Part shown: in pieces, positions 4,167 to 38,685 of the stretch
How positions within the stretch are numbered: position 1 is the first letter of the stretch
Layout: the number at the start of each line of letters is the position of its first letter
DNA from: a virus
DNA length: 41,605 nt
IMG/VR virus record: IMGVR_UViG_3300025117_000132
Location: 1-41,605 of that record
Reading direction: 5' to 3' (one strand)
The notes under the pieces: model-generated
What the model saw: the letters and a program-made list of their open reading frames with translations, nothing else
The model's database searches: none
What the model was told of the DNA's origin: nothing
Translations under genes and position numbers: made by a program

Positions 4167-5654
4167 GTGGGGAAAAAACGGGTTGAAGATAAGGATTCGC
4201 GCGAGCAAATCCACCAGGACGTAGAGCGGTTCCTGTACGATCCCCTGGGATACGTCATTTGGGCGTTTCAGTGGGGGGAGCCCGATACCCCGTTAGCCGA
4301 GTTTCCGGACGGTCCCGATATTTGGCAAACCGAGTTCCTGGATTACGTAGGCAGAACCTGTCTGGACGCCGAATCCGCGGTTCAGCTGGCGGTGAAATCC
4401 GGGCACGGTGTTGGGAAATCCACGATGGCGGCCTGGATGATTCTCTGGGCCATGTCTACCCGCCCGTATCTGCAAGGGGTTGTCACGGCTAATACCGGAC
4501 AACAATTACGAAGCAAGACCTGGTCGGCCCTGAATAAGTGGCACGATCTGGCAATGAATAGGCACTGGTTTAAGTGGACGCCCACGAAGTTCTATCACGT
4601 TCAGTATCCCGAGACCTGGAAGGTCGATGCCGTGACCTGGTCGCCGGAGAACTCGGATGCGTTTGCGGGTACGCACGAGAAATACGTTTTGATGCTTTTT
4701 GACGAGGCGTCTCAGATCCACGACAATATCTGGGAAGTGGCGCACGGTGCGCTCACGAGCCCGAAAGCGATCTGGATGGCGTTCGGGAACCCGACCCGGA
4801 ATACCGGGGGGTTTCACGAGTGTTTTGGGACCGGGAAACAGGCGCATCGCTGGAAACAATTCACGGTCGATGCCCGTAAATCCGCGGTTGCGGACCATAC
4901 CGTTCACGACCACTGGATCGAGGACTATGGTCTGGATTCAGATTTTGTGAAGGTCAGGGTTCTCGGTGAGTTTCCGGGTCAGGCCTCGGATCAGTTCCTA
5001 GCCACGGAATACGTGCAGGAATCATTCAAAAGACGGTACCGGGACGAACAGATCCAGCACATGCCGATCGTGCTGGGAGTCGATGTCGCGAGTTACGGGG
5101 GTGATGAATCGGTCGTGACGGTCAGGCAAGGCCTGGTGGTCCACGAACAGATCGCGGATCGCGGGCTCTCGACGCCCGAGACCTCGGATATGGTCGAGCG
5201 CGTGATACTCCGATACCGGCCTGACGGCATCTGCATCGACTGCGATGGCATCGGCACGGCGGTGGCGGATGAGCTCGCCAAACGCGGGCATGAAATCCAT
5301 CGCATCTACGGGATGGAGAAAGCCCGGAACCCGAAACTCTATTTCAATAAGCGCGCACAGATGTGGGGCGATTGCCGGGAATGCGTGCATCGCGCGCTCT
5401 CAATCCCTAATTACGACCCGGTTCTTGAATCGCAATTAACCCAACAACAGTACCATACCCGGCGGGGCTCGATTCAATTGATCTCGAAAGCGGATATGCG
5501 GGCGGCGGGCATGGATTCGCCGGACCGCGCCGATTCCCTGGTCTATACCTTCGCAATCAATCCCCAGAAACGCGACGCCGATGATTACGATGAGATCCAG
5601 GGCTCCCGCTATGCCGTGAGCCAGAACACAAGCGTCGGCCTCCTTGGAGCATGA
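4167..5654 (+). CDS. terL: Terminase large subunit (ATPase-nuclease)
   Basis: Packaging motor that docks on the portal, pumps DNA and cuts it. The ATPase domain carries Walker A SGHGVGKST (residues 78-86), a Walker B with acidic pair VLMLFDEAS (D179/E180) and a coupling-like AFGNPTRNTG segment. The C-terminal RNase H-like nuclease shows GVDVASYGGDES (near 306), IDCDGIGT (near 353) and a late DSPDRADS (near 452), which could supply the metal-binding acids. At 495 aa the length is normal. The start is GTG 4167, six bases after TGAGGT, placed inside a possible hairpin. It overlaps the portal gene by ATGA. Confidence 0.93.
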   Translation: MGKKRVEDKDSREQIHQDVERFLYDPLGYVIWAFQWGEPDTPLAEFPDGPDIWQTEFLDYVGRTCLDAESAVQLAVKSGHGVGKSTMAAWMILWAMSTRPYLQGVVTANTGQQLRSKTWSALNKWHDLAMNRHWFKWTPTKFYHVQYPETWKVDAVTWSPENSDAFAGTHEKYVLMLFDEASQIHDNIWEVAHGALTSPKAIWMAFGNPTRNTGGFHECFGTGKQAHRWKQFTVDARKSAVADHTVHDHWIEDYGLDSDFVKVRVLGEFPGQASDQFLATEYVQESFKRRYRDEQIQHMPIVLGVDVASYGGDESVVTVRQGLVVHEQIADRGLSTPETSDMVERVILRYRPDGICIDCDGIGTAVADELAKRGHEIHRIYGMEKARNPKLYFNKRAQMWGDCRECVHRALSIPNYDPVLESQLTQQQYHTRRGSIQLISKADMRAAGMDSPDRADSLVYTFAINPQKRDADDYDEIQGSRYAVSQNTSVGLLGA

Positions 5655-7774
5655 TGGATACCTTGACCGCCAATCCTGATTTTAACGCCGCTGTGGCCGA
5701 AACCGAGAAACCGGAAGAGCCACGGAAACGCCGGTCCCTGGACCTCACGATCCTGGATCTCGTGGGCATGGAGAACATTGCGGTCATGCTCGACGAGCGG
5801 GGCGAAAACGGGTTAACAGCCATTGGGTCCCAGGTGGTCGAGGACTACGAAGCCGACCGCGGGAGCCGCCAGGAATGGGAGGATAAGGTCAGGAAAGCTA
5901 AGGAATTGGCGTCCTTGCAGGGTCCCATGACCAGCTCCTTCCCGTTTGTCGGGGCCACGAACCCCAAGATACCGTTACTGGCCGAGGCCTGCACGCAGTT
6001 CTCATCCCGCGCCATGCCAGGGATTCTGAAAGACGGGGACCCCGTGAAGGGTCGAGTCTGGGGAAACGATGAGGGGGGCAAGAAAGAGGCGCGCAAGAAT
6101 CGTATCCAGGCCTGCATGAATTACCAACTCATGGAGGAGACCGGCGATTGGGTCCGGGGTCTCGATCGATTACTGGTTGAGGAACCCATGGTCGGGTCCG
6201 GGTTCAAAAAAGTCTATTACGACCCGGTCTTGGGCCGGAACGTCAGCGAATTCGTGCCCAGTGAAGACCTCGTGGTCGATTACTACGCCCGGAGCCTGGA
6301 GCGAGCCGCCCGCGTCACGCACGTCTACTACCTGTATCCCTATGAAATTGAACAAAAAATGCGGTCCGGTGAATACCGGGAAACCGATCTCAAGACACTG
6401 GGGACTTGGGAGTTGCAGGATTCCAAGCCCCGGGACCAGATCCAGGGCGAGGGCCAGGATCCGGGGGGAACCGACGATCGTTCGAAACCCCATGAAATAC
6501 TGGAACAACACTGTTGGCTCGATTTGGATGAAGACGGTTTGTCGGAGCCCTACATTGTGTTTGTTCACCGGGAATCCCGGTTTGTGTTCCGGATCACGCC
6601 CAGGTTCCTGGAATCCGGTGTTGATATAGATGCCGCGACCGACAAGGTCCTGAGCGTTGTCCCCGAGCAGTATTTCGTACCCTTTATCTTCCTGGAATCG
6701 CCGGATGGCGGGTTCTACGGCATGGGCTGGGGCACGCAGTACGCATCGATCAATGAGACGATCAACGCTTTGTATAAACAATTGCTCGATGCCGGAATCC
6801 TGGCGAATGCGCCTGGGGGTATCCGTAAGAAGGGGATGCGGATCAAAAACAACGACATGACGATTGTTCCGGGCGAGTGGAAGGAAGCGGAAATCGCTGA
6901 AGGCACTAGACTTGGGGACTATTTCTTCCCATTGCCTGTTAAGGAGCCATCGCCGGTTCTGGCGATGCTGGTTGATAAGTTGATGCAGTACGGGCAGCGC
7001 GCGCTCTCGAACGTGAACGTCATGGCCGGTGAGAGTCCGGGCGCGAATGTCCCGGCCACAACGACTGTGGCTTTGATTCAACAGGCCATGCAGCAGTTCA
7101 CGGCGATTTACGGGAGGATTTACCGGGGGCTAGCACTGGAATACAAGCTCCTGGCACGGCTCAATTACCTGTACATGACTCCCAAGCGCTACCGGGAGAT
7201 CCTGGATATCCCGGATGCTGATCCGCAGCTGGACTTCAATAGCCAGGACTGCGATGTCATACCCGCCGCCGATCCCCGCTACGCCACAAACGTACAGAAG
7301 CTCTTCATGGCCCAGATTGTGGAATCTTTGTTAGGCAAGGGATACGACGACCAGAAACTCAGAAAACGATTACTGGAATACCTAGGTGTCGAGGATCACG
7401 AGGAACTGTTACCGAAACCTGATACGTTACCCGCGATTGATCCTAGGACGGAAATACAACTCAAGGAACTGGAACTGAAATCCGTGATGGCCCAGATCGA
7501 ACTCAAGCGCGTGGAGAACGATAGCATGCGGGTTGGGAACGAGATCGCGAATACCAAGAACAACATGGCGATCGAGATCGAGATGGCGCGCGCCAAGATC
7601 GAGGACATCCAGGCCGATGTCAGGCGTAAGGACCGCCAGTATTCCGTGAAGGACAAGGACGACCAGATTCTGCGGCTGAATGAGGTCCTGAACCAGGCGC
7701 TAAGCGCCATGCAGGACATGGGACTACAGAAACGGATACCGGGACCGGACGTTCCGGGAGCGGAGACAGCCTGA
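5651..7774 (+). CDS. Portal protein
   Basis: Ring-forming vertex protein through which DNA enters the head. At 707 aa it is of the large podovirus (P22-type) class. Supporting features are its place between terminase and scaffold, the PLLAEACTQFSSRAMPGIL segment, the aromatic wing/stem region around GFYGMGWGTQYASINETINALYKQLLDAG (split here by the usual loop), and a long charged coiled coil at the C-terminus (residues about 590-690, rich in K, E, Q), which would form the barrel inside the head. ATG 5651 overlaps the terminase stop. ATG 5654 is also possible, because GGAG lies at 5646-5649. It ends in a TGATG overlap with the next gene. Confidence 0.88.
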   Translation: MMDTLTANPDFNAAVAETEKPEEPRKRRSLDLTILDLVGMENIAVMLDERGENGLTAIGSQVVEDYEADRGSRQEWEDKVRKAKELASLQGPMTSSFPFVGATNPKIPLLAEACTQFSSRAMPGILKDGDPVKGRVWGNDEGGKKEARKNRIQACMNYQLMEETGDWVRGLDRLLVEEPMVGSGFKKVYYDPVLGRNVSEFVPSEDLVVDYYARSLERAARVTHVYYLYPYEIEQKMRSGEYRETDLKTLGTWELQDSKPRDQIQGEGQDPGGTDDRSKPHEILEQHCWLDLDEDGLSEPYIVFVHRESRFVFRITPRFLESGVDIDAATDKVLSVVPEQYFVPFIFLESPDGGFYGMGWGTQYASINETINALYKQLLDAGILANAPGGIRKKGMRIKNNDMTIVPGEWKEAEIAEGTRLGDYFFPLPVKEPSPVLAMLVDKLMQYGQRALSNVNVMAGESPGANVPATTTVALIQQAMQQFTAIYGRIYRGLALEYKLLARLNYLYMTPKRYREILDIPDADPQLDFNSQDCDVIPAADPRYATNVQKLFMAQIVESLLGKGYDDQKLRKRLLEYLGVEDHEELLPKPDTLPAIDPRTEIQLKELELKSVMAQIELKRVENDSMRVGNEIANTKNNMAIEIEMARAKIEDIQADVRRKDRQYSVKDKDDQILRLNEVLNQALSAMQDMGLQKRIPGPDVPGAETA

Positions 7775-8031
7775 TGGATGAACTGGAACAGGAATTCAGG
7801 GGCTGGCGCAGTCACGGAATGGCTCAGCTCTTTTTCCAAGCGCTGGCCCGGAAACGGGAGATTGAGGCCCAGGCCATCCTCAGCGGCGGGACCCTGGAAT
7901 CCCCGGCGTTCACGGCCCAGAAAATAGGATTCGTACAGGGTCTGGATTGGGTGCTCAATACCTGCGTGCCCGATAGCCCTGTCATCGACGGCGAGACCGC
8001 CGTTTATCTCAATCATGGGAGAAAATCATGA
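7774..8031 (+). CDS. Small hypothetical protein between portal and GroES
   Basis: An 85-aa, mainly helical protein starting MDELEQEFRGWRSHGMAQLFF. The pattern (acidic helix, then QALARKREIEAQAILSGG, then VQGLDWVL) resembles small helical proteins often found directly after podovirus portal genes, but I cannot name a family. It overlaps its neighbours on both sides (TGATG with the portal, ATGA with the GroES-like gene), so it is certainly within the head operon. A head-assembly role is only inferred from position. Confidence 0.65.
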   Translation: MDELEQEFRGWRSHGMAQLFFQALARKREIEAQAILSGGTLESPAFTAQKIGFVQGLDWVLNTCVPDSPVIDGETAVYLNHGRKS

Positions 8032-8336
8032 TTATACCCACGTTATATCGGGTCATTGTAAGGCCCGAAATCGTCGAGGAGACGAAAAAAGGAAGTTCGA
8101 TTATTTTGCCGGAAGAGGTCAGGGACCGGGAACAATTTGGTATCGACCGCGGCACGCTCGTCGCTTGGGGTCCCGAAGCATCGCTCGGTTCCGGGGTATC
8201 GTTCAACAAAGGCGAGCGAGTGATTTACGCCCGGTACGCGGGATGCCTCGTCACGGATGATGACGGCACGGACTACCGGATCATGAACGACAAGGAAGTC
8301 CTTGCATTGGTACGAGCCGAAGAAGGAGTTGGCTGA
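8028..8336 (+). CDS. Phage GroES-like co-chaperonin (Cpn10)
   Basis: Probably caps host GroEL to help fold phage coat or scaffold protein, as T4 gp31 does, although this one is recognisably GroES-like in sequence. LYRVIVRPEIVEETKKG matches the GroES opening (LHDRVIVKR...). SSIILPEEV corresponds to the mobile loop, with IIL in place of the GroEL-contacting IVL. GTLVAWGPEA, FNKGERVIYARYAG and YRIMNDKEVLALV match the remaining strands in order. The length of 102 aa fits. It sits between portal and scaffold, overlapping both neighbours by 4 and 1 bases. No GroEL gene is present. Confidence 0.85.
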   Translation: MIIPTLYRVIVRPEIVEETKKGSSIILPEEVRDREQFGIDRGTLVAWGPEASLGSGVSFNKGERVIYARYAGCLVTDDDGTDYRIMNDKEVLALVRAEEGVG

Positions 8337-9235
8337 TGGATACTTTGTTAAATGGGCTAGACGTCCGAAACCTGGAGCCTGAACCCGAGGACACGGATCA
8401 GGACCAGGATCAAGATCAGGATCAAGAGCCAGATCAAGATCAGGAGCCAGCGGGAGACCGCACGAAGGACCGGGAACCCACGGAAGTTGAGCGCCTGGCG
8501 CTTTCCATGAACTGGGACCCGACTTTGGAGAAAACCGCTGAGGAGTTCATTCGCGATCTCGATCAAGTGCATCGGGAGCAGCGCAAACGAATCCGGCAGA
8601 AAGACCGGCAGCACGAAGCGCAGATGCGGAAGATGCGCCAGCAACTGGATGATATTCAGGGTAACATGCGCAGCCAGCGTGAGGCCGAGCGCGCACGCGA
8701 GATCCAGAATCTCGAACGCTCCCGCCAACAAGCGTTTGATGAACAGGATGAAGCGGGATTCCGGGAATACGACCGGCGGCTCCGGGAACTGGAGCGCGGT
8801 CAGGCTCCGGGCCAGACTCGCGATAGCCAGTCGCAACAGCCGGAGATCGATCCCCGCGTTCAGGCCTGGAAAGAAAAGAATCCCTGGTACGATTCCGGCG
8901 AGAACCCGAGGGAAAAACACATGGCGGATGCCGTCTTTAACGAGAGCCTGGAAGCCGGGTTCTCCGTCACGGAGTGCTTGCAAGCGGTCGATGAGGAACT
9001 TAAGTATTTCAGGGGCCTCAATACTCGCGGGGGCCAGAAACCGAAACTCCCGCTTGTCGGCGGTGGCCGCCCTGGATCGAGCTTTAAACCCAGGGGGCAT
9101 ACCGTCGCGGACCTGCAACGTGATGATCCTCAAGCGTATGAGGTCATGCGCGCGTACGTGAAAGCCGGGACTCCTGATGGGAATGGCAAACCCATGACTC
9201 CTGAAGCGTATATTAAGGATTACTATGATGAATAA
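8336..9235 (+). CDS. Putative scaffolding protein
   Basis: A 299-aa, highly charged protein placed just before the coat genes, where tailed phages keep the scaffold. Residues 15-45 are a striking acidic DQDQDQ/EPDQDQ repeat. Residues 70-165 form a long coiled coil rich in Arg, Gln and Glu (REQRKRIRQKDRQHEAQMRK and onward). The C-terminal part ends with DDPQAYEVMRAYVKAGTPDG. This composition (disordered acid, coiled coil, compact tail) is typical of internal scaffolds that guide coat assembly and then leave. It starts in a TGATG overlap after the GroES gene. Assignment is by position and composition rather than by a family motif. Confidence 0.7.
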   Translation: MDTLLNGLDVRNLEPEPEDTDQDQDQDQDQEPDQDQEPAGDRTKDREPTEVERLALSMNWDPTLEKTAEEFIRDLDQVHREQRKRIRQKDRQHEAQMRKMRQQLDDIQGNMRSQREAERAREIQNLERSRQQAFDEQDEAGFREYDRRLRELERGQAPGQTRDSQSQQPEIDPRVQAWKEKNPWYDSGENPREKHMADAVFNESLEAGFSVTECLQAVDEELKYFRGLNTRGGQKPKLPLVGGGRPGSSFKPRGHTVADLQRDDPQAYEVMRAYVKAGTPDGNGKPMTPEAYIKDYYDE

Positions 9236-9809
9236 ACCAGTGGCGAGCAACCAGAAACCAGATCCGAGCAACGGAATCACTTTAAGCGGGACCCCCGGTC
9301 AGCAAGCCGAGGTTCCGGTGGTCCAGAACGAAGTTGTGTCCGGGAGTACGCCAGGGCGCGACCCCGACCGTCCGAAATACCGATTGGATGAAGAGCTACT
9401 CACCGCGCGTCCGCGCGTGATTCCTCTCTTCGTGATTCCGGGTTACAAGACCCATATCGTGGCCTACGACCCGAAGAATCCGGGAAGCGTCCAGCAATGG
9501 ATCGAGCACGGCTGGGAAGAGATCATGCCCGCGAATGCCGATCCAAGCCAGGCGGTCGAGGAAAACATTAACCGCGGATACGAAATGACCGGCAATCGCT
9601 GCGCTCTCGGCGGTGGTCTCATCGGTATTCCCATGAAACTACCCGAAAAATACTACCAGCTGAGCATGAGGAAACTCGAGGTTTTGAACGACTCCATGCT
9701 CGCAAATATCGACGGGCGAGGTTCGCTGAAAGAAGAGGCGAACGACGACGAATTTTACGGAACCCGCGAGACTAAAGGCCGCGGGGTCAAAATCACAAGA
9801 GCCCGATAA
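9225..9809 (+). CDS. Head-region hypothetical protein
   Basis: A 194-aa protein between scaffold and decoration genes. The first 60 residues are Pro/Gly/Asn-rich and probably flexible. The core (LFVIPGYKTHIVAYDPKNPG, then WIEHGWEEIMPA) looks like a small alpha/beta fold, and the C-terminus is basic. I recall similar unnamed proteins near podovirus coat genes, but no function is established here. Start is at ATG 9225 or 9228; the AAGGA at 9215-9219 favours 9228. It overlaps the scaffold end by 11 bases. It could be a minor head or head-completion protein. Confidence 0.6.
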   Translation: MMNKPVASNQKPDPSNGITLSGTPGQQAEVPVVQNEVVSGSTPGRDPDRPKYRLDEELLTARPRVIPLFVIPGYKTHIVAYDPKNPGSVQQWIEHGWEEIMPANADPSQAVEENINRGYEMTGNRCALGGGLIGIPMKLPEKYYQLSMRKLEVLNDSMLANIDGRGSLKEEANDDEFYGTRETKGRGVKITRAR

Positions 9810-9839
9810 CCCTATGTGGGATCGGGGGAGGATTCAATC

Positions 9840-10442
9840 ATGTCAAACACCAATCGACCCAATGGGTTCACGCCCATCGGTCGCAATGGCGGTGCCTATA
9901 CCGGGGAACTCACCCCGTATGCCGTGGCCTCGAACTACGCCACGGAAATCCGCCTGCGCGACCTCGTTAAATTAGCCGGTTCCGCCGATGCCGCGGGACT
10001 CCCCACGGTCGCAAAAGCTGGGGCTACGGATGTCCCGGTCGGTATCGTCTGCGGAGTCGAGAACTCCACGAGCTTGCAATTGGAACGCAAGAGCATCCCG
10101 GCCTCGACCGGCGGAATCGTCTACGTATGCGACGACCCCAACGCATTGGTCGAAGGCCAAATCTCCGGCGCGGTAGCCGCGACCAATTTCGGCCAGACCA
10201 TGAATTTGGTCGATGCCGCGACCACCACTAACGTCAGCGACATGCAGTTCGATTACGATTCGCTCTCGGCTGCGGCCGGAACGTCTGAGGACCGGGTGTT
10301 TCTCTTGGAACGCCTGGTACCGGAACCTGGAAATGAAATGGGCATCTACGCCCGAGTCATCGCAAGCTTCAACCTGCATCAACGCGGTCGCGGCGTTAAA
10401 GACGCGACTGTTGGCAACGTTGTCGGACAAATCGGCGTCTAG
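9840..10442 (+). CDS. Probable head decoration/minor structural protein
   Basis: A 200-aa protein immediately before the major coat protein. The start is set at ATG 9840 (MSNTNRPNGFTPIGRNGG), which follows GGGGGAGGATTCAATC. A GTG at 9816 would only add residues encoded by the ribosome binding site. The body is beta-rich and small-residue-rich (Ala, Val, Thr, Gly), for example KAGATDVPVGIVCGVENS and PASTGGIVYVCDDPNALVEG. This resembles the small jelly-roll or beta-tulip proteins that decorate capsids. It ends with TAG directly before AAGGAG, the coat gene's ribosome binding site. The role is inferred from position and composition. Confidence 0.65.
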   Translation: MSNTNRPNGFTPIGRNGGAYTGELTPYAVASNYATEIRLRDLVKLAGSADAAGLPTVAKAGATDVPVGIVCGVENSTSLQLERKSIPASTGGIVYVCDDPNALVEGQISGAVAATNFGQTMNLVDAATTTNVSDMQFDYDSLSAAAGTSEDRVFLLERLVPEPGNEMGIYARVIASFNLHQRGRGVKDATVGNVVGQIGV

Positions 10443-15985: not shown

Positions 15986-16458
15986 TGAACGAAGAACGCT
16001 TGAACGAGATAGCCAGGGAGTTAATGCCGTTGCTCAAGAACGATGCCTGGGCGGTACGGTTCTGCGTGCAGTGGATCCGGGTCTGCCAGTTCTGGGACGA
16101 TCTCATTGATAAGGACTGTCCATTCGATAACGCCAGGATTCATCTGTGCATGGAAACGGCGGTTCTGGATATCCCCGAGAATCCATTCTTCCAAGCCCAC
16201 GCCCTGCAACTGCTACCGATGATGCGGAACGCCGTGTTGTGCTGGAAAGACAGCAACGATATGGAGCGCCGGGACTCGGAACACGCGCGGGTCCTCGCAT
16301 TCGGACTCCGATCCGCGTACACGGAGATACTGAACTATGTGGCGTATCTTGTAGGCGGCATGGACTGGGCCGAAAAAGTGGGACCGGCTCTACGGCTTTT
16401 GAACGACGAAACGATCCAGGATTACTGGGAGGATCACGACGATGTGCTTCAACGATAA
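15985..16458 (+). CDS. Helical hypothetical protein in ejection region
   Basis: A 157-aa, almost wholly helical acidic protein rich in Trp, Leu and Asp (for example WAVRFCVQWIRVCQFWDDLI and LQLLPMMRNAVLCWKDSND). Several Cys occur without a metal-binding spacing. I have seen similar unnamed proteins beside phage ejection genes, but cannot assign a role. The DDLIDKD string resembles a prenyl-synthase DDxxD, but nothing else of that fold is present. It starts one base into the previous stop (TAATG) and overlaps the next gene by 17 bases. Confidence 0.6.
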   Translation: MNEERLNEIARELMPLLKNDAWAVRFCVQWIRVCQFWDDLIDKDCPFDNARIHLCMETAVLDIPENPFFQAHALQLLPMMRNAVLCWKDSNDMERRDSEHARVLAFGLRSAYTEILNYVAYLVGGMDWAEKVGPALRLLNDETIQDYWEDHDDVLQR

Positions 16459-17101
16459 TACCGCTAAGGCGGCTGGAAAAGCCAAAAAAGAATATAAAAA
16501 AGCCATGGAGGAAATTCGTGGCTGGCTCTCCCCCTTCGTGACCGGTGGTCAAGCAGGATTCGAGGAGTTCGTGCGCCGGGCCTTTGCCGGTCCCGGAGAA
16601 TTCACGGCATCGCCGGGATACGAATGGGCCAAGAAAGAGGCTCTGGATTCCCTGAACGCCAAGGCGTACGCCAGCGGTACCGGGGGCGGCGCGCTCCAGA
16701 AATCACGGATGCGGTACGCTGAAGGGCTGGCTAGCCAGGAATACGGGAATTGGTTGAACGAACATTATGCGTCTTTAAATCCTTTCATGCAGATATCGCA
16801 GATCGGCCTCAATGCCGCGAACCAACTCAGCGGGTTTCGGCAGAACACGGCACAGGGCGTGGCCAACATGCTCCTGACCCAGGGGCAGGCGAAGGACGCG
16901 AATACGATGGGTTGGCTGAATACCGGGATAGGTCTTGCAGGGCTGGGTCTTGGAGTTGCCGGACTTGCCAAAGCCGCTCCGGCAGCCGCCGCTACGACTA
17001 CGGGCGGTGGGTTGAATAGTGCTTTTGCGCTTCCGGCCAATAGCGGGATATCGAACTTCACGCCACAGTTTTCACAGAATATCGGCCCCTCATTATTCTA
17101 A
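16442..17101 (+). CDS. DNA ejection (internal virion) protein
   Basis: A 219-aa protein resembling P22-like ejection proteins. An N-terminal Lys-rich helix (KAKKEYKKAMEEIRGW) is followed by the conserved-looking stretch EFTASPGYEWAKKEALDSLN and GALQKSRMRYAEGLASQEY. The C-terminal third is hydrophobic and Gly/Ala-rich (GWLNTGIGLAGLGLGVAGLA), as needed for passage into or across the membrane. Its place before two larger internal proteins supports the call. The start at ATG 16442 lies within the previous gene (17-base overlap). Confidence 0.75.
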   Translation: MCFNDNTAKAAGKAKKEYKKAMEEIRGWLSPFVTGGQAGFEEFVRRAFAGPGEFTASPGYEWAKKEALDSLNAKAYASGTGGGALQKSRMRYAEGLASQEYGNWLNEHYASLNPFMQISQIGLNAANQLSGFRQNTAQGVANMLLTQGQAKDANTMGWLNTGIGLAGLGLGVAGLAKAAPAAAATTTGGGLNSAFALPANSGISNFTPQFSQNIGPSLF

Positions 17102-17113
17102 CAGGAGTCCATC

Positions 17114-18031
17114 ATGCCTCAGTATTTTACAGGATTATCGCCAGAGCAATACACGGCCCCACTCTCCGCGTACGTCGAGGGGCGCAAGGCGCGGCAGGAT
17201 ATTCGTCTCGGTGAGAACCGCGTGAAATTAAGCGACTTGACCACCAAGTGGATGGAGGAGGACCGGCCCTACGAGGTCGAGAAGCTGAAGCGGGATAAAA
17301 CGCTTGGGGATCAGCAAGTCACACTCGGCGGGCTCGGCTTGAAACAAGCCGGGCGTGAAGAAGAAATCGGTGCCTCCACGTTCGAGAAGCAGAAAGAATA
17401 CGCGATCAATCTCCTGGAATCCCGGCTATCGAAACTCAATACCGATCAGAAAGCCGAAACCATTGCCATGTACGGAGACGCTGCCGGAATGTTGCAGAAA
17501 GCCTTGCCGTACATGGAAAAACTCGAACAGTACAATAATTTTGTGGACAAGATCAATGGTTTTATCGGCGACACGGGATTACCGACGTTTCAGAACTTCT
17601 CGGGGACACCCGAGGAATTTCCAACATTCAGAGACAGTCAGAATAAATTGATCTCCGAGGTTGGAGCACAGTTTCAGAAGTACGTGAAGCAGACCGACTA
17701 CATGACCGGGGCTTTGAAGACTCGGGAGGCGAATAAGACGGCGGAGATGAAGAAGCGTGGGGGCCAGGGCTCAGCGCCGAAAGCAGAAGACACGGTCAAG
17801 CAGCCGACCGTGAGCGAGCGGGCTTCGGCGCTCAGGCTGGCGAAGGATGAACTGACTCTCGATCCGCAGGTTCTACCCACAAAGGAAGATATCGAACGTC
17901 GCGCCCTCGAAATTCTTCAGGACCGATACCCGAATTGGAACCCCAAGGGCGTTCGGGTTGGCGGCAAAACGGAAGAACAACAATTGGCCGATGAGGATTG
18001 GCGCACCTGGAAAAAGCCACGGGGTATGTAA
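17114..18031 (+). CDS. Probable internal virion protein, coiled coil
   Basis: A 305-aa charged, helical protein with CAGGAG eight bases before its ATG. Residues 35-75 and 85-150 look like coiled coil (EKLKRDKTLGDQQVTL, ESRLSKLNTDQKAETIAMYG). A Lys/Ser-rich linker near residue 210 follows (MKKRGGQGSAPKAED), then a compact C-terminal helical part (ERRALEILQDRYPNWNP). No enzyme motif is seen. It lies between the ejection protein and the giant polyvalent protein and overlaps the latter by one base (TAATG). It is most likely the second ejection protein; this is inferred from position. Confidence 0.65.
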   Translation: MPQYFTGLSPEQYTAPLSAYVEGRKARQDIRLGENRVKLSDLTTKWMEEDRPYEVEKLKRDKTLGDQQVTLGGLGLKQAGREEEIGASTFEKQKEYAINLLESRLSKLNTDQKAETIAMYGDAAGMLQKALPYMEKLEQYNNFVDKINGFIGDTGLPTFQNFSGTPEEFPTFRDSQNKLISEVGAQFQKYVKQTDYMTGALKTREANKTAEMKKRGGQGSAPKAEDTVKQPTVSERASALRLAKDELTLDPQVLPTKEDIERRALEILQDRYPNWNPKGVRVGGKTEEQQLADEDWRTWKKPRGM

Positions 18032-21000
18032 TGCCTATTCAAGCTTATAAAAACTGGATGCTCGATCCTGAGTACCAACAACTCTCGATCAAAGAGCAGC
18101 GTCGTATTCTCGAAAACTATTTTAACGGCAAAATAGTTGACGATGAGTTTCGCTCATTACCAGAAAACGAGCAGATAGCAATACGCAATAATTTTCTTAA
18201 AGATCATTTTACACCAGACATTGAGAAGCGTCTTGGTATTGAAATACGCGAACCAATTAACACAAAGCCTAAAGACGCATCGGGACAAGGTGTTGTTGAA
18301 AACCTTGCTGCTGGGTTCATGCAAGGCGTAAAAGCGCCTACCGCTAGTGTTGTCGGTTTGTTTGATCCTGAAGTTGGCGCTGAGATGCAGCGTGACATCC
18401 AGGAACAGCATCCGTCTGAAGGTGCGGCTGGATTTGTTGGGCAATCCTTGGGTAGTGTTGTTCCATCGGTTTTGGCTTTACCTGCCGGTCCTGCTGCTGC
18501 GGCGGCTGGCCTTGCCGGTTACTACGGTGCGAGTGGTGCTGGTGAAGAACGCATCAAGGCATCTGAGGCGCGTAAAGCCGGAGAGGATATTCCGACAGAG
18601 CAAGAGTTTAAGGCTGCTATTGGAAACGCTTTAATTCAGGGCGGTGGAGAAGCCGCCATGGGTGCGGCCTATGCTAAACTGTTTGGTGCCGGCGGAAAAC
18701 TAACTGGTAAGTTATTACCACGAACGGCGAAGGGTGCCGGTTTAGGTGCAGTGGTTGAGGGTGGGGAGGAATCTATACAACAGACTGCGCAGAATGTTTT
18801 AGAACGCGAGACTGGCATTGATCCTGACCGTGGAGCGTTTGAAGACGTTCCAGAATCATTCCTGGGTGGTGCAATAGGCGGTGGTTTTCTGGGCGGTGCG
18901 GGTGGTGTCTTGACGCCACAACGCCAAGTTGAGGATGTGCAGCAGGATACTGCACAAGGTATGGAGTTTGCTCCAGTCGGCGTCACGGCAGAGGATATGC
19001 TATCCGGCATGGAGAACGCGACGGACGCTGATTTGCAGCAGGCACTCGGTCGCGCCCATGAAGCACTCGGGCAAGACCAAGACAACCAGGAAAAGAGAAA
19101 AGCGTTCATTGCCATCAAGCGGGAGATCGAGCGGCGGAACCAGCCACCCCAGCCAGATGTGTTACGAAACCAAGCCAACGATCTTCGCGTGCAACTGGTT
19201 AAGGAACCGGACGAGCAGAAACGCGCCGGGCTACTGGATCAACTGACCAAGGTGGAACAGAAACTCCAGGCGTCCGGGGTGCAGCGCACGGGCATCGGGA
19301 CTCCATTGCAGACGCCGGAGACGGTGAAACCAGATACTCGCCCGTCAGCGACCAGTGAACTGGATGTGTTGCGCCAGGAAAGCGAGCGTCTGAATACCGA
19401 ACTGGAGGACAGCCACAAGCGCTCTCGGGGGCTGCAGGAAAAAATCGCCGGGACGACCAACGATCACACCAAGCGCATAATCCTGATCGAGCAGCTGGCG
19501 GCTGAGGTCCAGGAATATAAAAGTAAACTCGCACGCCAGGCCGGAATCGAGCTTCGTGCCGGGGAACTCCGTGCTGCCGCAGCACGCAAACAGCTTCCCG
19601 CGCCACCGGAACCAGCGTTGCAATCCGCAGTCGATCCGAATCTGATTACTCCCACTCGCGGCTCCATGGCCGAATCCCAGGTCGAGGCCGGGATGGTCGA
19701 AAATCCCTTGGAGCGTGGCGGCGTCGAGGCCTCGACGGCCAGGGCCAGGCAACAGCGCACCGTGAGCCAGCCTTCAGCACCAGCCCTGGAAGCTATCGAT
19801 CTCGCAACTGATTACGGTGTCCGGGCCGAGACGGAAGCCAAGATTAACTCAATGCCGCGCAAGGAACTGAACGCTCTGGCGAAGTCGTTGGGCGTTGATT
19901 CTAAAGGGAACGTCGGCGAGTTACGCCAGCGGTTACTCAAACGCGGCGTCGATCCGGCAGTCCTTGGAATTGACCGCGACGCAATCCGACAGAAGGTCGA
20001 GGATGCGTTAAACAACCGCAAACCGCCTCCACCGCCCGCAGGACCCGCTGGCCCATCCGGCCCGGCTCCGACGAAGCCAAAGGGACCGGCACCGGTTAGT
20101 CCGAGTCCACAAGGCACGCTTAATGATGCAAAATCCGCATTAGAGCAATCCGATCTACAGCGTACAGGTATATCAAATATCAGCGGTTCAGAATACTTTG
20201 CAGTTGATCGTGATTATGCTGATAGGCCAGATTACCCAAGGTTACGTGTCTCAGATCATGCGACGACCGGACGAGGCCAATCTGCCGCTATTGAAGTTGG
20301 CGACCATCAAGATGCCGATTTTGGATTAAACGAGATACCCCAGGCAATAGAGCGGTTAAAACAACTCCATGAACAATGGCGGGAGGAAAATGGATTCAAT
20401 GAAGAGAAGGATGATGTAACAACGAATCATATTGAGGATGGAGAAACTCAGGGTACCAAGCGCGTATTAGTCAAGGATTCCGATGGCAAGGTTTTAGGTG
20501 AGCGCATCGTGGTAGTTAATGGCATTCCACTCAGTAAGCGTGATGCTCTGTATAAAAACGCACTACGAGAAATCAATCAGGAGATCAAATCTAAAACGCC
20601 AGTAACCCAGGAGACGATCAATGATACGCAAAACCAAGAGGGGGTACGTGGTGCAGTCCCGCGAGGGCAAGAACCTGGGAGGTCCGTACAAGACCAGGGA
20701 CCAAGCCGAGAAGCGCCTGCGCCAAGTGGAGTACTTCAAGCACCGGGACAAGGGGAAGTAGGCGAAGGCACCGTTTCCCGTACGCCCGAGACGACGCAAC
20801 GTAAACCTCGTGCGACCAAGCCGGGGAAGCCCCTGCACGACATGAAGTTTAGTACGTGGTTAGCCGACGCTCTTTACAGGATTACTGGCAAGAGAGGGTC
20901 CAAGATCGGTCTTCCGGCTCCTAATGTTCTTGGCAGCCACGAGTTTTGGGCGCACACAGATATCCTCGACCGATACAAACACAACGACGCAAACGCACGG

Positions 21001-24000
21001 AATAGGCGTAAGGGCGAGTTGTTTATCTCCCCAGCCAGAATCAGGGAATTCACAGGACTGTCGCCATCCCAAGCCAAGCGTAACGGCGATGTTGACATCC
21101 AGCGTATCTATGATGAGTTTCGCGCCGACTTCCCCGGATTCTTCCCCAATGTCGAATCCGAACAAAATTATGGAACGGATTACGAACGGGAAGCCATTAA
21201 GGCGTTCATGGACATCCTGAAGTCCAGTGCTCCGACAATACTTGACGCCGCCAAACAAAATCGTGTTACTATCCTGGATGAATCCATGCTGGCCGATGAG
21301 TTGCTTGCGAAGCACCAGTCGGAAGAGGAAGCAGAGTTTGAAGCGTGGCTCGATGAACACCCCGAAGCGCGCAAGAGGATTGAAGATGAAAAAGCCAAGC
21401 GATCGAGAGCTGAGAGTTTATCTGAGGAAGAAGCAGCTAAAGAAGGAGCTATTAACGAAGCTCTTGAAGCACTTCAATCAGAGGGGTATCCAGCCGACGC
21501 GATCGACAGAGACACGGTAGAGATTCTCGTTGACTACGGATACACGACGGATGAAATATTTGAGTCCTTTGCGCGGGATCAAGGAGAACTCGATGCAAGT
21601 CTTAATCCCGATGAATTTGAGGACGCTTTCTCACAAGCCGTCGATGCCTTTCTCGAAGAAAAGGCAAGCCCGAAGCCCGTAAAACCACAGCAAGAAACGC
21701 CTGAGCATCTTGAGCCTCCCGATGCTAAGGGGAATCAACAAAGTACGTTTGTGGATTACGAGGAGGACGATAAGGGACTTCTCGGCGGGCTCTTCTCCCG
21801 CACCAAGCCCGTGGCCGCTGAAACGATCCTCCAGGAAGCCAAGGATACGCTGGGCACGACGGAGAAACTGACCGAAGCCGGATTTGTGCTGCCTGACGGG
21901 ACGCTGATTGTTGTGCCCCAGCGGGGCGGTAAAAAATCGTGGTACACCGCAGGGCATAAATGGATTGCCAGTTTGATACCGAGTCTTCAGGACCGCGTAT
22001 CGGCACTCACCGACTTCATGGAAGCCGGGGCTATTCGTATCGACTATCAGCCCGGCGGCGGGAGTACGATCGAGATCAGGGGCGTGCCGACCGCCAAGCA
22101 ACAAGCGGTTCTGACGCGCATGATCGAGGGCTCCAAGGGTGCCATCCCGGTTGATATGATCCGCACGCTCCCTGACGGGTCTCTGGATATGTATAGCGGC
22201 TGGTATACCGATTCCAAGACACTGGCTGCCGACGCCAAGAGTTTCGCATCCGGGCGCTTGAAGATGACCGGGAGTTTGATTCAGCAATTCCACCAGTCTG
22301 ACGGGACGCACTGGGCCGGGCGGCGGAACAAAGTTCAGGGCATGGGTGTACTGAAGACTGCGCGTGCCGTTGCCCCGCTTGGTTACGAGCTGGAGGTTGT
22401 GAAAACGATTAACGATCTGCCTCCCAGGATGCGGAAGCGTGCTGCGAAACTATCGAGGGATGGCTTCAATATCGAGGGCGCTTACGATCCCGAGACTGGC
22501 GTAGCCTACTTGGTCGCTTCTAACATTTCGAGTGCCAAGCGTGCGGTGGAAGTGGCTCTGCACGAGAGCATTGGTCACGGTGGTTTGCGTGGGGCATTGC
22601 GTGGGAAACTGAATACATTTTTGTCGCGCATGGCGTTGAGTAAAGAGTATCGTGATAAGATCAAATCGCTGTCGAAGGAACTCAAGATTGACCGTCTGGA
22701 AGCGGCAGAGGAGTTTTTTGCCAAGAGCGTTGAAGACGGGACGATTGACCAGTCATGGTGGAGCAAGTTTGTAGGGGCTTTCCGTGCTGCACTGAGGGGT
22801 ATCGGGATTGAGTTAGAGTTTACGTCTCAGGACCTGAAGCGTCTGGTCCGCATGGCTCACAAGGCGGCGCAGCTACGGGGGGATACTCGTACCAGTGGTG
22901 CGAGATTTAGCGCCACGAAGCCAGCGACGGAGTACGATCGTCTGTATAACGGCCTGCTGGAGGGTGGCGCGACGCCTGATGAAGCCGCACGCTGGGTTGA
23001 GGAGATGGGCGTTACCAAAGACACCCCGCTCAGCAAACCGGCAGAGGCGACGGAGACAACGGGATTTTCAATACCGGAACAAACGGCGTTACAAAAACTT
23101 GGGCAGACGTTTTGGAATAAGTTTAATCGCCTAGAGCAAATTCAAGACATCATTGGCAAGGTCGCAGAAGATCAAGATGCCGTGATGGCTAATGAGTTAT
23201 TGCCTGGGCGTTCCGGCAATGAAATCCTCGACTTTAGCAAGAAAGTTATCGACCCGATTCTGAAGCGTCTCGCGCACGCTAAACTAACACTCGATGATCT
23301 AGGCGTATTTCTCTATGCCAAGCACGCCAAGGAACGCAACGAGCACATTGAACGTAAATGGGCTGATATTGAAAAGATTCCCAAGAAGTACCGTGAAATC
23401 ATTGATGTCATACGGACTCAGGGTTCTGGTATGACCAATGAGGAAGCTCAGGCCATTCTTGACCTGTATAAAGATGACAAGGTTATACAGGAGTTAGCTA
23501 AAGAGGTTTGGGCCTACGAGCAAAAGAATAGGGATCGTCGTCTGGATGCCGGATTGTTGACGGAAGAAGAACACCATGTTTTGAGTACGATGTTCGATTT
23601 TTACGTTCCGCTCAAGCGGGACAAAAACGGCAAGAGTCGTATGCGTACCGGAAAGGGATTGTCGGTTTCCGGTCCCGAGATCATTCAAGCGTGGGGGCGC
23701 ACGACACCGGCACAGAATCCATTCGTGCAATCAACGCTCGATACTGTTGAAGCCATTGTCCGGTCTGAGAAGAATCAGGCCATCGAATCGCTTGCAAAAT
23801 TGATCGAAGCGAATCCTAACGAAGATTTATGGACGATCCACGAGCAGAAGTATATCCCATATTACAATGAGGGTGGCGAGTTTCAGGGTACGCACCCATC
23901 GCACATTATCAATGAGAATCAAGATGTTGAATTTAAGCGGAATGGCAAGCAGTTTATCATCAAAATTCACGACGAAGCGTTGGTACGTGCATACAAAAAT

Positions 24001-25659
24001 CTTGGAGTGGACCAAGTCAAAAAGTGGATACAAGTTTTACAAAAGTATAATGGTTTATTACGTAAGTCAATCACGACCTGGAGCGTGCAGTTTGGGCTGA
24101 CGAACTTCGAGCGAGACTTTCAGACCGCGATGATTCACTTAGCCGGTGAGATCGACCCCAAGATTGCCAAGGCTGTCGCTAAAGATATTCGTAAAGCCAT
24201 GCGTGGTGTATGGCGCAACGTTCGTGATAAATCCACACAGGATGAATGGTCTAAAGCTTATGACGAACTACGAAAACTTGGTGGTGTGACCGGATGGTTT
24301 GCTTACGATAACTTCGAGCAAAAGGTAAAGCGACTTGAAAACGAACTGAAACAATTTAACGAAAGTCCCACAAAGGCCATACCTCGAAAGCTATTAAAGC
24401 CGCTGGGGCAATTGCTTGAAGATTATAACCAGAGTATTGAAAATGCGGTTAGGTTATCGGCATACGTTCATCTGGTAAAAAATGGGTACAGCAAACAGAA
24501 AGCCGCGCAGTATGCAAAAAACGTCACAGTAAACTTTGATAAGAAGGGACTGGCAACCAACACCAGTGGAGCGCTGTATCTCTTTTCTAACGCTGCAATC
24601 GGTGGGGCAATGAGAAGCTTACTGTCTCTTGCAAAACACAAGGGGACCCGAAAGATTGTTGCGGGCATCACGGCCACGGCGTTCCTGTCTACTCTATTGA
24701 ATCGCTTGGTTGATGACGATGACGAGTACGATAAGATCACTCCATATAACCGAGATATGAATCTTTTGATTCCTGTGCCTGGCTTGAAGAAGCATGTTGC
24801 TATACGGGCTTCATACGGCTACAACGTGTTTAATGCGCTTGGTAACGTCATGGCCGATATGCTGGTTGGTAAAGAAACTGTAATGGGTGGGGCAAAACGT
24901 GTTCTGCGGTCCGTGGATCAGGGATTTAATCCGCTGGGGGCCGGTAGTTTGATACAGACTGTTATTCCCACGATTGGCGACCCATGGGTCCAGATTTTAG
25001 AAAACAAGAACTTTGCAGGCAACCCAATTTATAAGGAACAGCCTCCCTACCAACCCAAGGTTCCTGATAGCGAACTGTACTTCAAATCGGCCAGAACGCA
25101 GACAGTCGCGCTAACCAAATGGCTCAACGCTGTCACTGGCGGAAGTGAGAAAGTCAGTAAATTTATTGACATCAATCCAGAGGTATTAGATCACTTGCTG
25201 GATTCCTATACCGGTGGAGTCGGTAAACTTATGGGTGATACTGTCGATACGTTAGCTACCTTTGCGAAGATGGAGCTGCCCGAAGCGCATAAGGCTCCCA
25301 TTCTGCAAGTCATGGTTAAAGGTCCATCGGCCTCGTTCGCACGTAGCCGGGCGCTGGATACGCTGGCGGAATCGGGCCGCACGATCTTCGGCGAGATCGA
25401 CACCCAGCGGTTCCGGGATGATATGAAGTATGCGTTTGAAAAGAAAATTATAACCGCCGAACAGTATTCCAATTACTTGAGGCGATTCACTAAAAACCAA
25501 GCTGAAGCGAAAGCCAGCCTGGGTAAAATCAAGAGCGAGCGCAAACAAGAACGTCCGGCACAGCCTGAGCGCACGGAGCGCCGGGACCGTCCCGAGCGTC
25601 CCACGAGAAAGATCGGTCTCGGCATGAGGCCGCCCGTTACAATCGGATCGTTTGCATGA
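18031..25659 (+). CDS. Giant polyvalent/ejection protein with SAP, HExxGH peptidase and LPD38-like regions
   Basis: A 2,542-aa protein, by far the largest gene. Start is ATG 18031 (MPIQAYKNWML); an upstream TTG only adds residues from the previous gene's end. Order of parts: Ala/Gly-rich hydrophobic stretch (about 145-180); coiled coils (330-560); a SAP-like DNA-binding helix pair (SMPRKELNALAKSLGVD, about 604-641); a Pro/Gly linker (670-700); another linker (865-925) that overlies the nested gene; an unnamed globular domain (934-1070); an acidic coiled coil; a zincin-type motif LHESIGHGGL (H1511, E1512, H1516) with a downstream EE pair near 1560 as possible third ligand; and a C-terminal LPD38-like helical region (about 2011-2280). 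Such proteins are packaged in the head and injected with the DNA. Confidence 0.85.
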   Translation: MPIQAYKNWMLDPEYQQLSIKEQRRILENYFNGKIVDDEFRSLPENEQIAIRNNFLKDHFTPDIEKRLGIEIREPINTKPKDASGQGVVENLAAGFMQGVKAPTASVVGLFDPEVGAEMQRDIQEQHPSEGAAGFVGQSLGSVVPSVLALPAGPAAAAAGLAGYYGASGAGEERIKASEARKAGEDIPTEQEFKAAIGNALIQGGGEAAMGAAYAKLFGAGGKLTGKLLPRTAKGAGLGAVVEGGEESIQQTAQNVLERETGIDPDRGAFEDVPESFLGGAIGGGFLGGAGGVLTPQRQVEDVQQDTAQGMEFAPVGVTAEDMLSGMENATDADLQQALGRAHEALGQDQDNQEKRKAFIAIKREIERRNQPPQPDVLRNQANDLRVQLVKEPDEQKRAGLLDQLTKVEQKLQASGVQRTGIGTPLQTPETVKPDTRPSATSELDVLRQESERLNTELEDSHKRSRGLQEKIAGTTNDHTKRIILIEQLAAEVQEYKSKLARQAGIELRAGELRAAAARKQLPAPPEPALQSAVDPNLITPTRGSMAESQVEAGMVENPLERGGVEASTARARQQRTVSQPSAPALEAIDLATDYGVRAETEAKINSMPRKELNALAKSLGVDSKGNVGELRQRLLKRGVDPAVLGIDRDAIRQKVEDALNNRKPPPPPAGPAGPSGPAPTKPKGPAPVSPSPQGTLNDAKSALEQSDLQRTGISNISGSEYFAVDRDYADRPDYPRLRVSDHATTGRGQSAAIEVGDHQDADFGLNEIPQAIERLKQLHEQWREENGFNEEKDDVTTNHIEDGETQGTKRVLVKDSDGKVLGERIVVVNGIPLSKRDALYKNALREINQEIKSKTPVTQETINDTQNQEGVRGAVPRGQEPGRSVQDQGPSREAPAPSGVLQAPGQGEVGEGTVSRTPETTQRKPRATKPGKPLHDMKFSTWLADALYRITGKRGSKIGLPAPNVLGSHEFWAHTDILDRYKHNDANARNRRKGELFISPARIREFTGLSPSQAKRNGDVDIQRIYDEFRADFPGFFPNVESEQNYGTDYEREAIKAFMDILKSSAPTILDAAKQNRVTILDESMLADELLAKHQSEEEAEFEAWLDEHPEARKRIEDEKAKRSRAESLSEEEAAKEGAINEALEALQSEGYPADAIDRDTVEILVDYGYTTDEIFESFARDQGELDASLNPDEFEDAFSQAVDAFLEEKASPKPVKPQQETPEHLEPPDAKGNQQSTFVDYEEDDKGLLGGLFSRTKPVAAETILQEAKDTLGTTEKLTEAGFVLPDGTLIVVPQRGGKKSWYTAGHKWIASLIPSLQDRVSALTDFMEAGAIRIDYQPGGGSTIEIRGVPTAKQQAVLTRMIEGSKGAIPVDMIRTLPDGSLDMYSGWYTDSKTLAADAKSFASGRLKMTGSLIQQFHQSDGTHWAGRRNKVQGMGVLKTARAVAPLGYELEVVKTINDLPPRMRKRAAKLSRDGFNIEGAYDPETGVAYLVASNISSAKRAVEVALHESIGHGGLRGALRGKLNTFLSRMALSKEYRDKIKSLSKELKIDRLEAAEEFFAKSVEDGTIDQSWWSKFVGAFRAALRGIGIELEFTSQDLKRLVRMAHKAAQLRGDTRTSGARFSATKPATEYDRLYNGLLEGGATPDEAARWVEEMGVTKDTPLSKPAEATETTGFSIPEQTALQKLGQTFWNKFNRLEQIQDIIGKVAEDQDAVMANELLPGRSGNEILDFSKKVIDPILKRLAHAKLTLDDLGVFLYAKHAKERNEHIERKWADIEKIPKKYREIIDVIRTQGSGMTNEEAQAILDLYKDDKVIQELAKEVWAYEQKNRDRRLDAGLLTEEEHHVLSTMFDFYVPLKRDKNGKSRMRTGKGLSVSGPEIIQAWGRTTPAQNPFVQSTLDTVEAIVRSEKNQAIESLAKLIEANPNEDLWTIHEQKYIPYYNEGGEFQGTHPSHIINENQDVEFKRNGKQFIIKIHDEALVRAYKNLGVDQVKKWIQVLQKYNGLLRKSITTWSVQFGLTNFERDFQTAMIHLAGEIDPKIAKAVAKDIRKAMRGVWRNVRDKSTQDEWSKAYDELRKLGGVTGWFAYDNFEQKVKRLENELKQFNESPTKAIPRKLLKPLGQLLEDYNQSIENAVRLSAYVHLVKNGYSKQKAAQYAKNVTVNFDKKGLATNTSGALYLFSNAAIGGAMRSLLSLAKHKGTRKIVAGITATAFLSTLLNRLVDDDDEYDKITPYNRDMNLLIPVPGLKKHVAIRASYGYNVFNALGNVMADMLVGKETVMGGAKRVLRSVDQGFNPLGAGSLIQTVIPTIGDPWVQILENKNFAGNPIYKEQPPYQPKVPDSELYFKSARTQTVALTKWLNAVTGGSEKVSKFIDINPEVLDHLLDSYTGGVGKLMGDTVDTLATFAKMELPEAHKAPILQVMVKGPSASFARSRALDTLAESGRTIFGEIDTQRFRDDMKYAFEKKIITAEQYSNYLRRFTKNQAEAKASLGKIKSERKQERPAQPERTERRDRPERPTRKIGLGMRPPVTIGSFA
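20621..20761 (+). CDS. Nested 46-aa protein inside the giant gene (+1 frame)
   Basis: ATG 20621 has an AGGAGA ribosome binding site at 20609-20614 and opens a 46-codon frame ending in TAG 20759-20761, out of frame with the surrounding gene. The peptide begins MIRKTKRGYVVQSREGKNLG, continues GPYKTRDQAEKRLRQVEYFK and ends in a Lys-rich tail. This is the pattern of a widespread family of small phage and plasmid proteins (beta-hairpin then helix: basic start, G-x-W/Y-x-V, DGK-x-LG, T-x-x-EAEKRL-x-x-IE-x-F). In the outer frame the same bases encode a low-complexity Gly/Gln/Pro/Arg linker. That is the expected outcome if the small gene is the constrained one and the giant protein reads through it. 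Confidence 0.75.
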   Translation: MIRKTKRGYVVQSREGKNLGGPYKTRDQAEKRLRQVEYFKHRDKGK

Positions 25660-38418: not shown

Positions 38419-38668
38419 AACGCAGCATAGGATTACCCTAGAACTTCCATTTAAATTCGGAACGTTATTATTTGGCGTAACCAAATTTTTCCACAACCAC
38501 ACCCCGCACTATCAGACCGTACCGTTACATTTCTGGTCGTATACATTATCAAAACATGGTCTGATGATTCTGGTTGATGAGGATAGATTTACGCATAAGT
38601 ATCCGATACAGGATTGCTTTGTAGATCAGGATGAAGCTGATGCGGAGTGCGAGCGCCGAAGCAGATAA
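38408..38668 (+). CDS. Small hypothetical protein before integrase
   Basis: An 86-aa protein starting MNIETQHRITLELPFKFGTL. The sequence LPFKFGTLLFGVTKF, then PHYQTVPLHFWSYTL, and the end GLMILVDEDRFTHKYPIQDC resemble a small beta-rich phage protein of a type I have seen unnamed in phages. It overlaps the previous gene by 11 bases, with GGAG at 38395-38398. An earlier in-frame ATG at 38393 is possible. It lies 17 bases before the integrase start. Confidence 0.55.
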   Translation: MNIETQHRITLELPFKFGTLLFGVTKFFHNHTPHYQTVPLHFWSYTLSKHGLMILVDEDRFTHKYPIQDCFVDQDEADAECERRSR

Positions 38669-38685
38669 ACGTGCAGGAGAGAACC

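Follow-up and report, generated by a model that had tools for sequence, protein, structure and literature searches.

A probable small-protein gene of a conserved phage family nested out of frame inside a giant polyvalent-type gene

Embedded spanin genes of the lambda Rz/Rz1 type, in which a small phage gene lies wholly inside a larger one in the +1 frame and is often missed by annotation, are by analogy the nearest precedent for the arrangement described here; in the accessible text of the paper describing them, the loss of a stop codon extending one gene over the next is considered by the authors (PMC6139136). Spanins differ in that Rz1 is an outer-membrane lipoprotein and both spanin genes work as a pair, whereas the present locus has a single small family that occurs in many different giant genes and often free-standing elsewhere, and its 46-residue peptide contains no cysteine and hence no lipoprotein signal of the Rz1-like o-spanin kind. 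The larger partner recalls the polyvalent proteins, which are predicted to be injected with phage DNA and whose hallmark domains are found in five of the 11 outer proteins that we scanned, including the one studied here; no out-of-frame gene inside such proteins is described in the accessible text of that work (Iyer et al., 2017; PMC5512222). In the openly accessible literature we found no report of a small gene that recurs nested in giant phage genes.

The DNA analysed, hereafter the window, is a viral stretch of 41,605 nucleotides (IMG/VR record IMGVR_UViG_3300025117_000132). The 46-codon frame that a first-pass annotation had picked out inside a giant gene is borne out: the nested gene occupies positions 20621–20761 on the plus strand, from an ATG start to a TAG stop, with a ribosome-binding-site-like AGGAGA at 20609–20614 on the same strand, 6 nt ahead of the ATG. 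It lies wholly within an outer ORF of 2553 codons (17998–25659, plus strand, where the TTG start at 17998 is uncertain), spans approximately outer codons 875–922 in the +1 frame relative to the outer ORF, and is read through by the latter. The proposal that the outer frame here encodes a Gly/Gln/Pro linker also holds, as the outer reading is rich in these three residues and the order-promoting residues W, C, F, I, Y, V, L and M make up 12% of the nested stretch versus 27% elsewhere in the outer protein. A switch in codon-position GC marks the nested gene: the small frame has a GC3 of 0.87 there, and the outer frame has GC1/2/3 values of 0.67/0.44/0.50 before it and 0.61/0.41/0.53 immediately after it. 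The encoded protein is basic (K+R minus D+E = +10) and is predicted to adopt a beta-beta-beta-alpha fold.

The outer gene has the features of a polyvalent protein: it is very long, stands in a virion context and carries a polyvalent-associated domain, LPD38 (large polyvalent protein associated domain 38), at residues 2241–2436 (24718–25305, plus strand, E = 2.3e-41), and its C-terminal part matches phrog_14770 (E = 1.5e-145) and phrog_616. A DNA-ejection-type gene upstream (phrog_598, 16442–17101, plus strand, E = 3.9e-18) suggests a virion or ejection setting; the gene for the terminase large subunit (phrog_2, 4167–5654, plus strand, E = 3.5e-43) lies some 15 kb away from the small gene. An integrase-like ORF at 38647–39879 of the window (phrog_1, E = 2e-63) raises the possibility of a temperate phage. 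Searching IMG/VR with the entire giant protein yielded a single relative, a contig of 60.8 kb from the same virus with one mismatch in 17,659 bases, and a DNA search for the outer gene among isolated phages was empty. The protein matches from isolated phages, 60 of 133 being listed, cover only approximately residues 1473–2465 at 28–29% identity, so that the nested site has no counterpart in these listed matches. The small gene is absent from nine records linked to the window through the portal gene, six of which are under 15 kb.

The nested ORF is very probably a real gene. A chance ORF is rejected on the existence of homologues and on the open-frame test considered below, the peptide having a relative in Aeromonas phage 1233 at 71% identity (tblastn, E = 1e-11) which is a free-standing unannotated ORF downstream of ORFs of 618, 812 and 89 codons. 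Just 28 features are annotated in that 67 kb record (OR359403.1; the locus, 5280–10132, is our L001), where the 618- and 812-codon ORFs are unannotated as well as the small gene. The nested pair may likewise escape usual gene callers, as the first-pass annotation proposed. The resemblance to known small phage proteins that had been suspected from the peptide is confirmed by abundant relatives in phage records, IMG/VR and genome contigs: 332 phage records match at E ≤ 10, of which 110 align across 80% or more of the query, the best 80 of 283 and the best 80 of 248 confirmed loci were kept from a first profile search of IMG/VR and from a second profile search, and 26 genome contigs contain family members. 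These contigs (L104–L129) are binned as Omnitrophota, Acidobacteria, Micrarchaeota, Bathyarchaeota and Patescibacteria groups. A plasmid search gave no matches, and among the isolated-phage matches inspected no copy is nested.

Together these sequences define a conserved family of approximately 43 residues, with identity of up to 79% and a core, MI(K/R)K...GY.V.S..GKNL....A..RL..VEYFKH, which the window peptide shares (84-sequence alignment, window first). A widespread phage small-protein family is uncovered by this comparison, since matches of the 84 members to existing Pfam and PHROG profiles are either weak or embedded in larger ones. DUF2188 matches four of the 84 at E ≤ 0.01 (best E = 0.0024) and reaches 18.2 bits with the fusion protein L080, for which the curated cut-off is 22, while DUF6316 matches the window peptide weakly (E = 0.0093), all scores, where given, being under the curated Pfam cut-offs; the DUF1508 model matches none of the 84 at E = 0.01. 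The best PHROG match has an E value of 1.9e-6, and the two commonest sit inside profiles of 262 and 740 positions. A search of the PDB by sequence, in which the fusion proteins L053, L080 and L070 were included, returned nothing significant (best E = 0.2). An in-frame copy at 46–51% identity forms the N-terminal ~41 residues of ~470-residue proteins in the two records opened, those of Klebsiella phage RSU-F4K5 and Salmonella phage PJN025; one of these is annotated as DUF2213, and the DUF2213 match of the RSU-F4K5 protein is just under the cut-off. In such DUF2213-type head proteins of enterobacterial siphophages the family domain is thus fused N-terminally in frame rather than nested.

The 186 loci collected, window included, reduce to 140 nonredundant ones, comprising 78 stand-alone copies (with one residual near-duplicate, L182 of L179), 12 copies in frame within an ORF of at least 120 codons and 50 overlain by an out-of-frame ORF of 200 codons or more. 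Requiring an outer ORF of at least 500 codons with at least 100 on each side leaves 41 of the 50, and hence 41 of the 140, as strictly nested; the nine loosely nested loci dropped (L029, L032, L034, L051, L104, L115, L116, L126 and L166) have an ORF under 500 codons or fewer than 100 on one side. L175 was retained but is ambiguous, as its small frame runs open through 228 codons and chance alone would leave its outer frame open in 17% of draws. Broken down by source, the nested loci comprise the window itself, 15 of the 64 loci from the first IMG/VR scan, 25 of the 47 that the second scan added, none of the 26 genome contigs and neither of two annotated phages. Such counts are not population frequencies, because the lists stop at the best 80 and nested copies served as seeds for the second scan; nor are the loci independent of each other. 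Nine of the 12 in-frame copies given by the mechanical rule were used; L028, L043 and L109 were omitted, as they have an ATG at the family start and look like stand-alone copies with chance-open frames.

The outcomes that would have counted against the first-pass reading are not seen in the relatives: homologues are abundant, and the nested copies retain a start. All 41 nested loci have a start codon no more than one codon away from the family start, as do 72 of 78 stand-alone copies, the remaining six having an ATG or GTG two codons earlier, whereas it is found in only three of the nine in-frame copies (six of 12 with L028, L043 and L109 added). This contrast bears on programmed frameshifting, by which the outer N-terminus would be joined to the small domain and the small frame would be a C-terminal tail and not a separate gene. 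The same domain does occur in frame in larger proteins, at the C-terminal end in L037 and L053, yet loss of the start in six of the nine in-frame copies and its retention throughout the nested ones argue against a tail, as does a small-frame stop at most two codons upstream of the start in 10 of the 41 nested loci, which leaves almost no room for a shift. The AGGAGA of the window, at Shine–Dalgarno spacing, points the same way, and frameshifting is in our judgement very improbable. Motifs of this type precede only eight of the 41 nested starts, the window's among them, which counts against separate translation of the others; for comparison, an AGGAG-like site stands ahead of only 14 of the 476 remaining +1-frame ATGs when L095 and the eight outer genes having such a site are taken together.

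When the codons of the peptide are redrawn with the usage of the outer gene, the outer frame of the window is open in 1.1% of draws, and the mean over the 41 nested loci, which were picked for being open, is 1.2%; for the 78 stand-alone copies the codon-redraw model expects 4.5 open frames versus 5 seen. The register is identical in all 41 nested loci, with none in the other register. This constancy was dropped as evidence because an ATG followed by ATN creates a TGA in one alternative frame, so that only the other can be open. The second codon is ATT in 34 of 78 stand-alone copies versus none of the 41 nested ones, and the single frame permitted by the small-gene sequence would stay open provided that T-ending codons are avoided before AA, AG and GA. 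On the strength of homology, retention of the start in nested relatives, purifying selection in the small frame and recurrence in giant ORFs, all read from sequence, we regard it as likely, with good confidence, that the nested ORF is functional, is translated in its own right and belongs to this conserved phage family.

To see which of the two frames is constrained, substitutions were compared within five groups whose members are related nested loci that can be aligned in their flanks (28 non-independent pairs, from loci other than the window's pair); flanking stretches with local identity below 40% were disregarded. Nested segments differ at outer positions 1/2/3 by 0.21/0.08/0.04 per codon, as opposed to 0.23/0.16/0.45 upstream and 0.15/0.11/0.40 downstream. 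The outer third position is thus nearly frozen, because it is the second position of the small frame, and the first is the most variable, opposite to both flanks. The fastest nested site, the third position of the small frame, changes at about half the third-position rate of the flanks, which would follow from additional restraint by the outer frame. For the two large groups, identity is 0.91–0.92 between the small proteins and 0.75–0.76 between the outer-frame translations of those bases. The five groups show purifying selection on the small frame, although in the L076/L086 group the flanks have no third-position excess, this pair being too similar or too short. In each of the 41 loci the nested stretch has a lower share of order-promoting residues than the remainder of the outer protein (mean 0.18 versus 0.28).

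The reversal of positions relative to the flanks is difficult to reconcile with an untranslated small frame whose DNA is kept for the outer linker or for an RNA element. Recurring outer-linker patterns such as GQEP and GGVLQA might be taken in favour of this explanation; they recur, however, because the underlying small-frame codons are conserved. The same peptide is moreover found stand-alone elsewhere with other codon choices, and there are outer homologues without the segment, which together make the explanation extremely improbable. The earlier suggestion that the small gene came first or is the more constrained of the two is supported, since nested substitutions follow the small frame and the family occurs free-standing in many phages. 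The data support a small frame that would be the constrained one and an outer frame that would tolerate it as a linker, in effect overprinting in reverse.

By the usual account of overlapping viral genes, as given in the accessible text of PMC8227390, a new protein is born inside an old gene, and here the small gene would have arisen within a giant gene with the stand-alone copies as later escapes. A tree of the family cannot tell gain from loss, which leaves room for such an origin. It is nevertheless very improbable, since 78 of the 140 loci are free-standing, conservation of the peptide far exceeds that of the outer sequence and the giant ORFs have no detectable similarity around the site. 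In overprinting in reverse it is the nested gene that looks older and conserved and the outer sequence that looks like the newcomer.

The outer proteins themselves are diverse. Among the 11 scanned (the window's and ten others, with L034 from outside the 41), the polyvalent domains are LPD38 in the window, ART-PolyVal in L030 and L066, ddrB-ParB in L072 and InPase in L103. The outer protein of L040 matches a sliding clamp, just under the Pfam cut-off and strongly in PHROGs, that of L095 has a PHROG match only, and those of L060, L100, L074 and L034 have no Pfam or PHROG matches. With the nested segment masked, the 41 outer proteins fall into 11 groups at a summed score above 100 bits, seven when any link at E = 1e-6 is accepted and four at E = 1e-3. 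When only the 150 residues to each side of the nested site are compared, the proteins split into 14 groups with no link between them at E = 1e-3, and the window is alone in one of them. The weak links of the window join residues 1475–1618 to L066, through a domain of ~149 residues, and residues 1280–1422 to L184, with the nested gene at residue 875. A description of the outer proteins as eleven unrelated groups is weakened by such single-domain links, which merge groups, the window with L066 included, so that 'unrelated' is fully valid near the site only. Next to the nested site the giant-ORF sequence is not detectably related between these groups. With four to 11 groups overall versus 14 near the site, the giant proteins are mosaics, in which the small gene persists while its surroundings change.

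Two fragments without the small gene, L231 (26.6 kb) and L232 (29.6 kb), can be aligned with L072 both before and after its nested site, which indicates that the outer protein is continuous across the site. In L231, residues 93–550 and 599–716 align to residues 74–552 and 846–974 of L072, whose nested gene is at residue 623, and the L072 linker at this site is about 245 residues longer than in L231 or L232. An N-terminal search found three outer homologues in records without the small gene (L231, L232 and L234), and flank searches returned known carriers only. Searching the 41 outer proteins by tblastn against the available flanks of the other 99 loci gave two matches, to L166, itself loosely nested, and to L043, with no split intermediates. 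In L043 (6001–8356) the small gene lies ~1.3 kb upstream of a relative of residues 53–382 of the L066 outer protein.

The location of the L072 site in a linker absent from its homologues, together with flanks that vary between loci while the small gene stays, would fit recombination that carries the small gene, like a cassette, into linkers within giant genes. The extra linker of ~245 residues is far longer than the gene, which weighs against a simple cassette. This explanation differs from overgrowth of a free-standing gene in route only, and we hold it to be possible rather than probable. The family tree, built on 46 columns, is poorly resolved and requires 18 label changes versus 34 in shuffles, only two of the 18 being forced by starred (well-supported) branches. 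The 14 different surroundings are a stronger argument for repeated origin than the tree, with the reservation that exchange of flanks by recombination could reduce the number of events.

In the reading that we prefer, the ancestor of the small gene would have been a free-standing late gene, which giant ORFs grew over or took in more than once. One ribosome would then translate the segment as part of the giant protein, in which it would form a disordered linker, and another would start at the internal ATG and make the small protein. More speculatively, and with considerable doubt, giant polyvalent genes of different phages may have repeatedly grown over the same ancient small late gene, which kept working in the linker since a small protein made from the cargo message would help to load, protect or eject cargo or DNA. 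Recurrence at many places in giant genes would offer a natural experiment on the growth of polyvalent genes and on their tolerance of dual coding.

An AlphaFold2 model built from 84 sequences is beta-beta-beta-alpha with a mean pLDDT of 91.2, which agrees with the hairpin followed by a helix that had been guessed from the peptide, with three strands in the model. The best match among solved structures, PDB 3bid (NMB1088), which we take to represent the DUF1508/UPF0339 fold, superimposes over 43 residues at 2.3 Å (Z = 4.5, TM 0.51–0.54). With a Foldseek E value of 2 and 14% identity this match is weak and may reflect a common small arrangement; the modelled resemblance is too weak for membership of DUF1508/UPF0339. 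Among the predicted viral structures of BFVD there were no matches at E = 0.001, the top ten having TM scores of 0.77–0.87 and an XkdF-like protein ranking 17th (TM 0.86, E = 0.5).

Around the stand-alone viral copies, 90 of 107 candidate neighbour ORFs gave counts, which may overlap, of nine for phrog_2 and five for phrog_38 (terminase), seven for phrog_332 (adaptor) and four for phrog_156 (portal). TerL is present in 26 of 50 stand-alone records (50 of 56 being covered), within 1 kb in nine of the 26 and within 3 kb in 14, and on the same strand in 25, a context that would fit expression late in infection. It is present in five of the 43 records of nested carriers (40 of the 41, L170 being left out, plus L034, L075 and L166), so that a packaging-module neighbourhood is not established for nested copies. 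The neighbours, the charge and the in-frame fusions, with fold matches that are weak, lead us to propose tentatively that the product may be a basic accessory protein that binds nucleic acid or sits inside the head and serves head assembly, packaging or ejection, an assignment that is plausible without being probable. Interpretation of L053 as a portal fusion was unsupported on comparison with the portal of the window. In L087 (5950–8031) an in-frame fusion places the small domain ahead of a LigD-type DNA ligase, and the C-terminal end of RB43 gp57B (L208, 337–960), relatives of which are annotated as RNA ligase or anti-CBASS protein, partly matches the family in frame.
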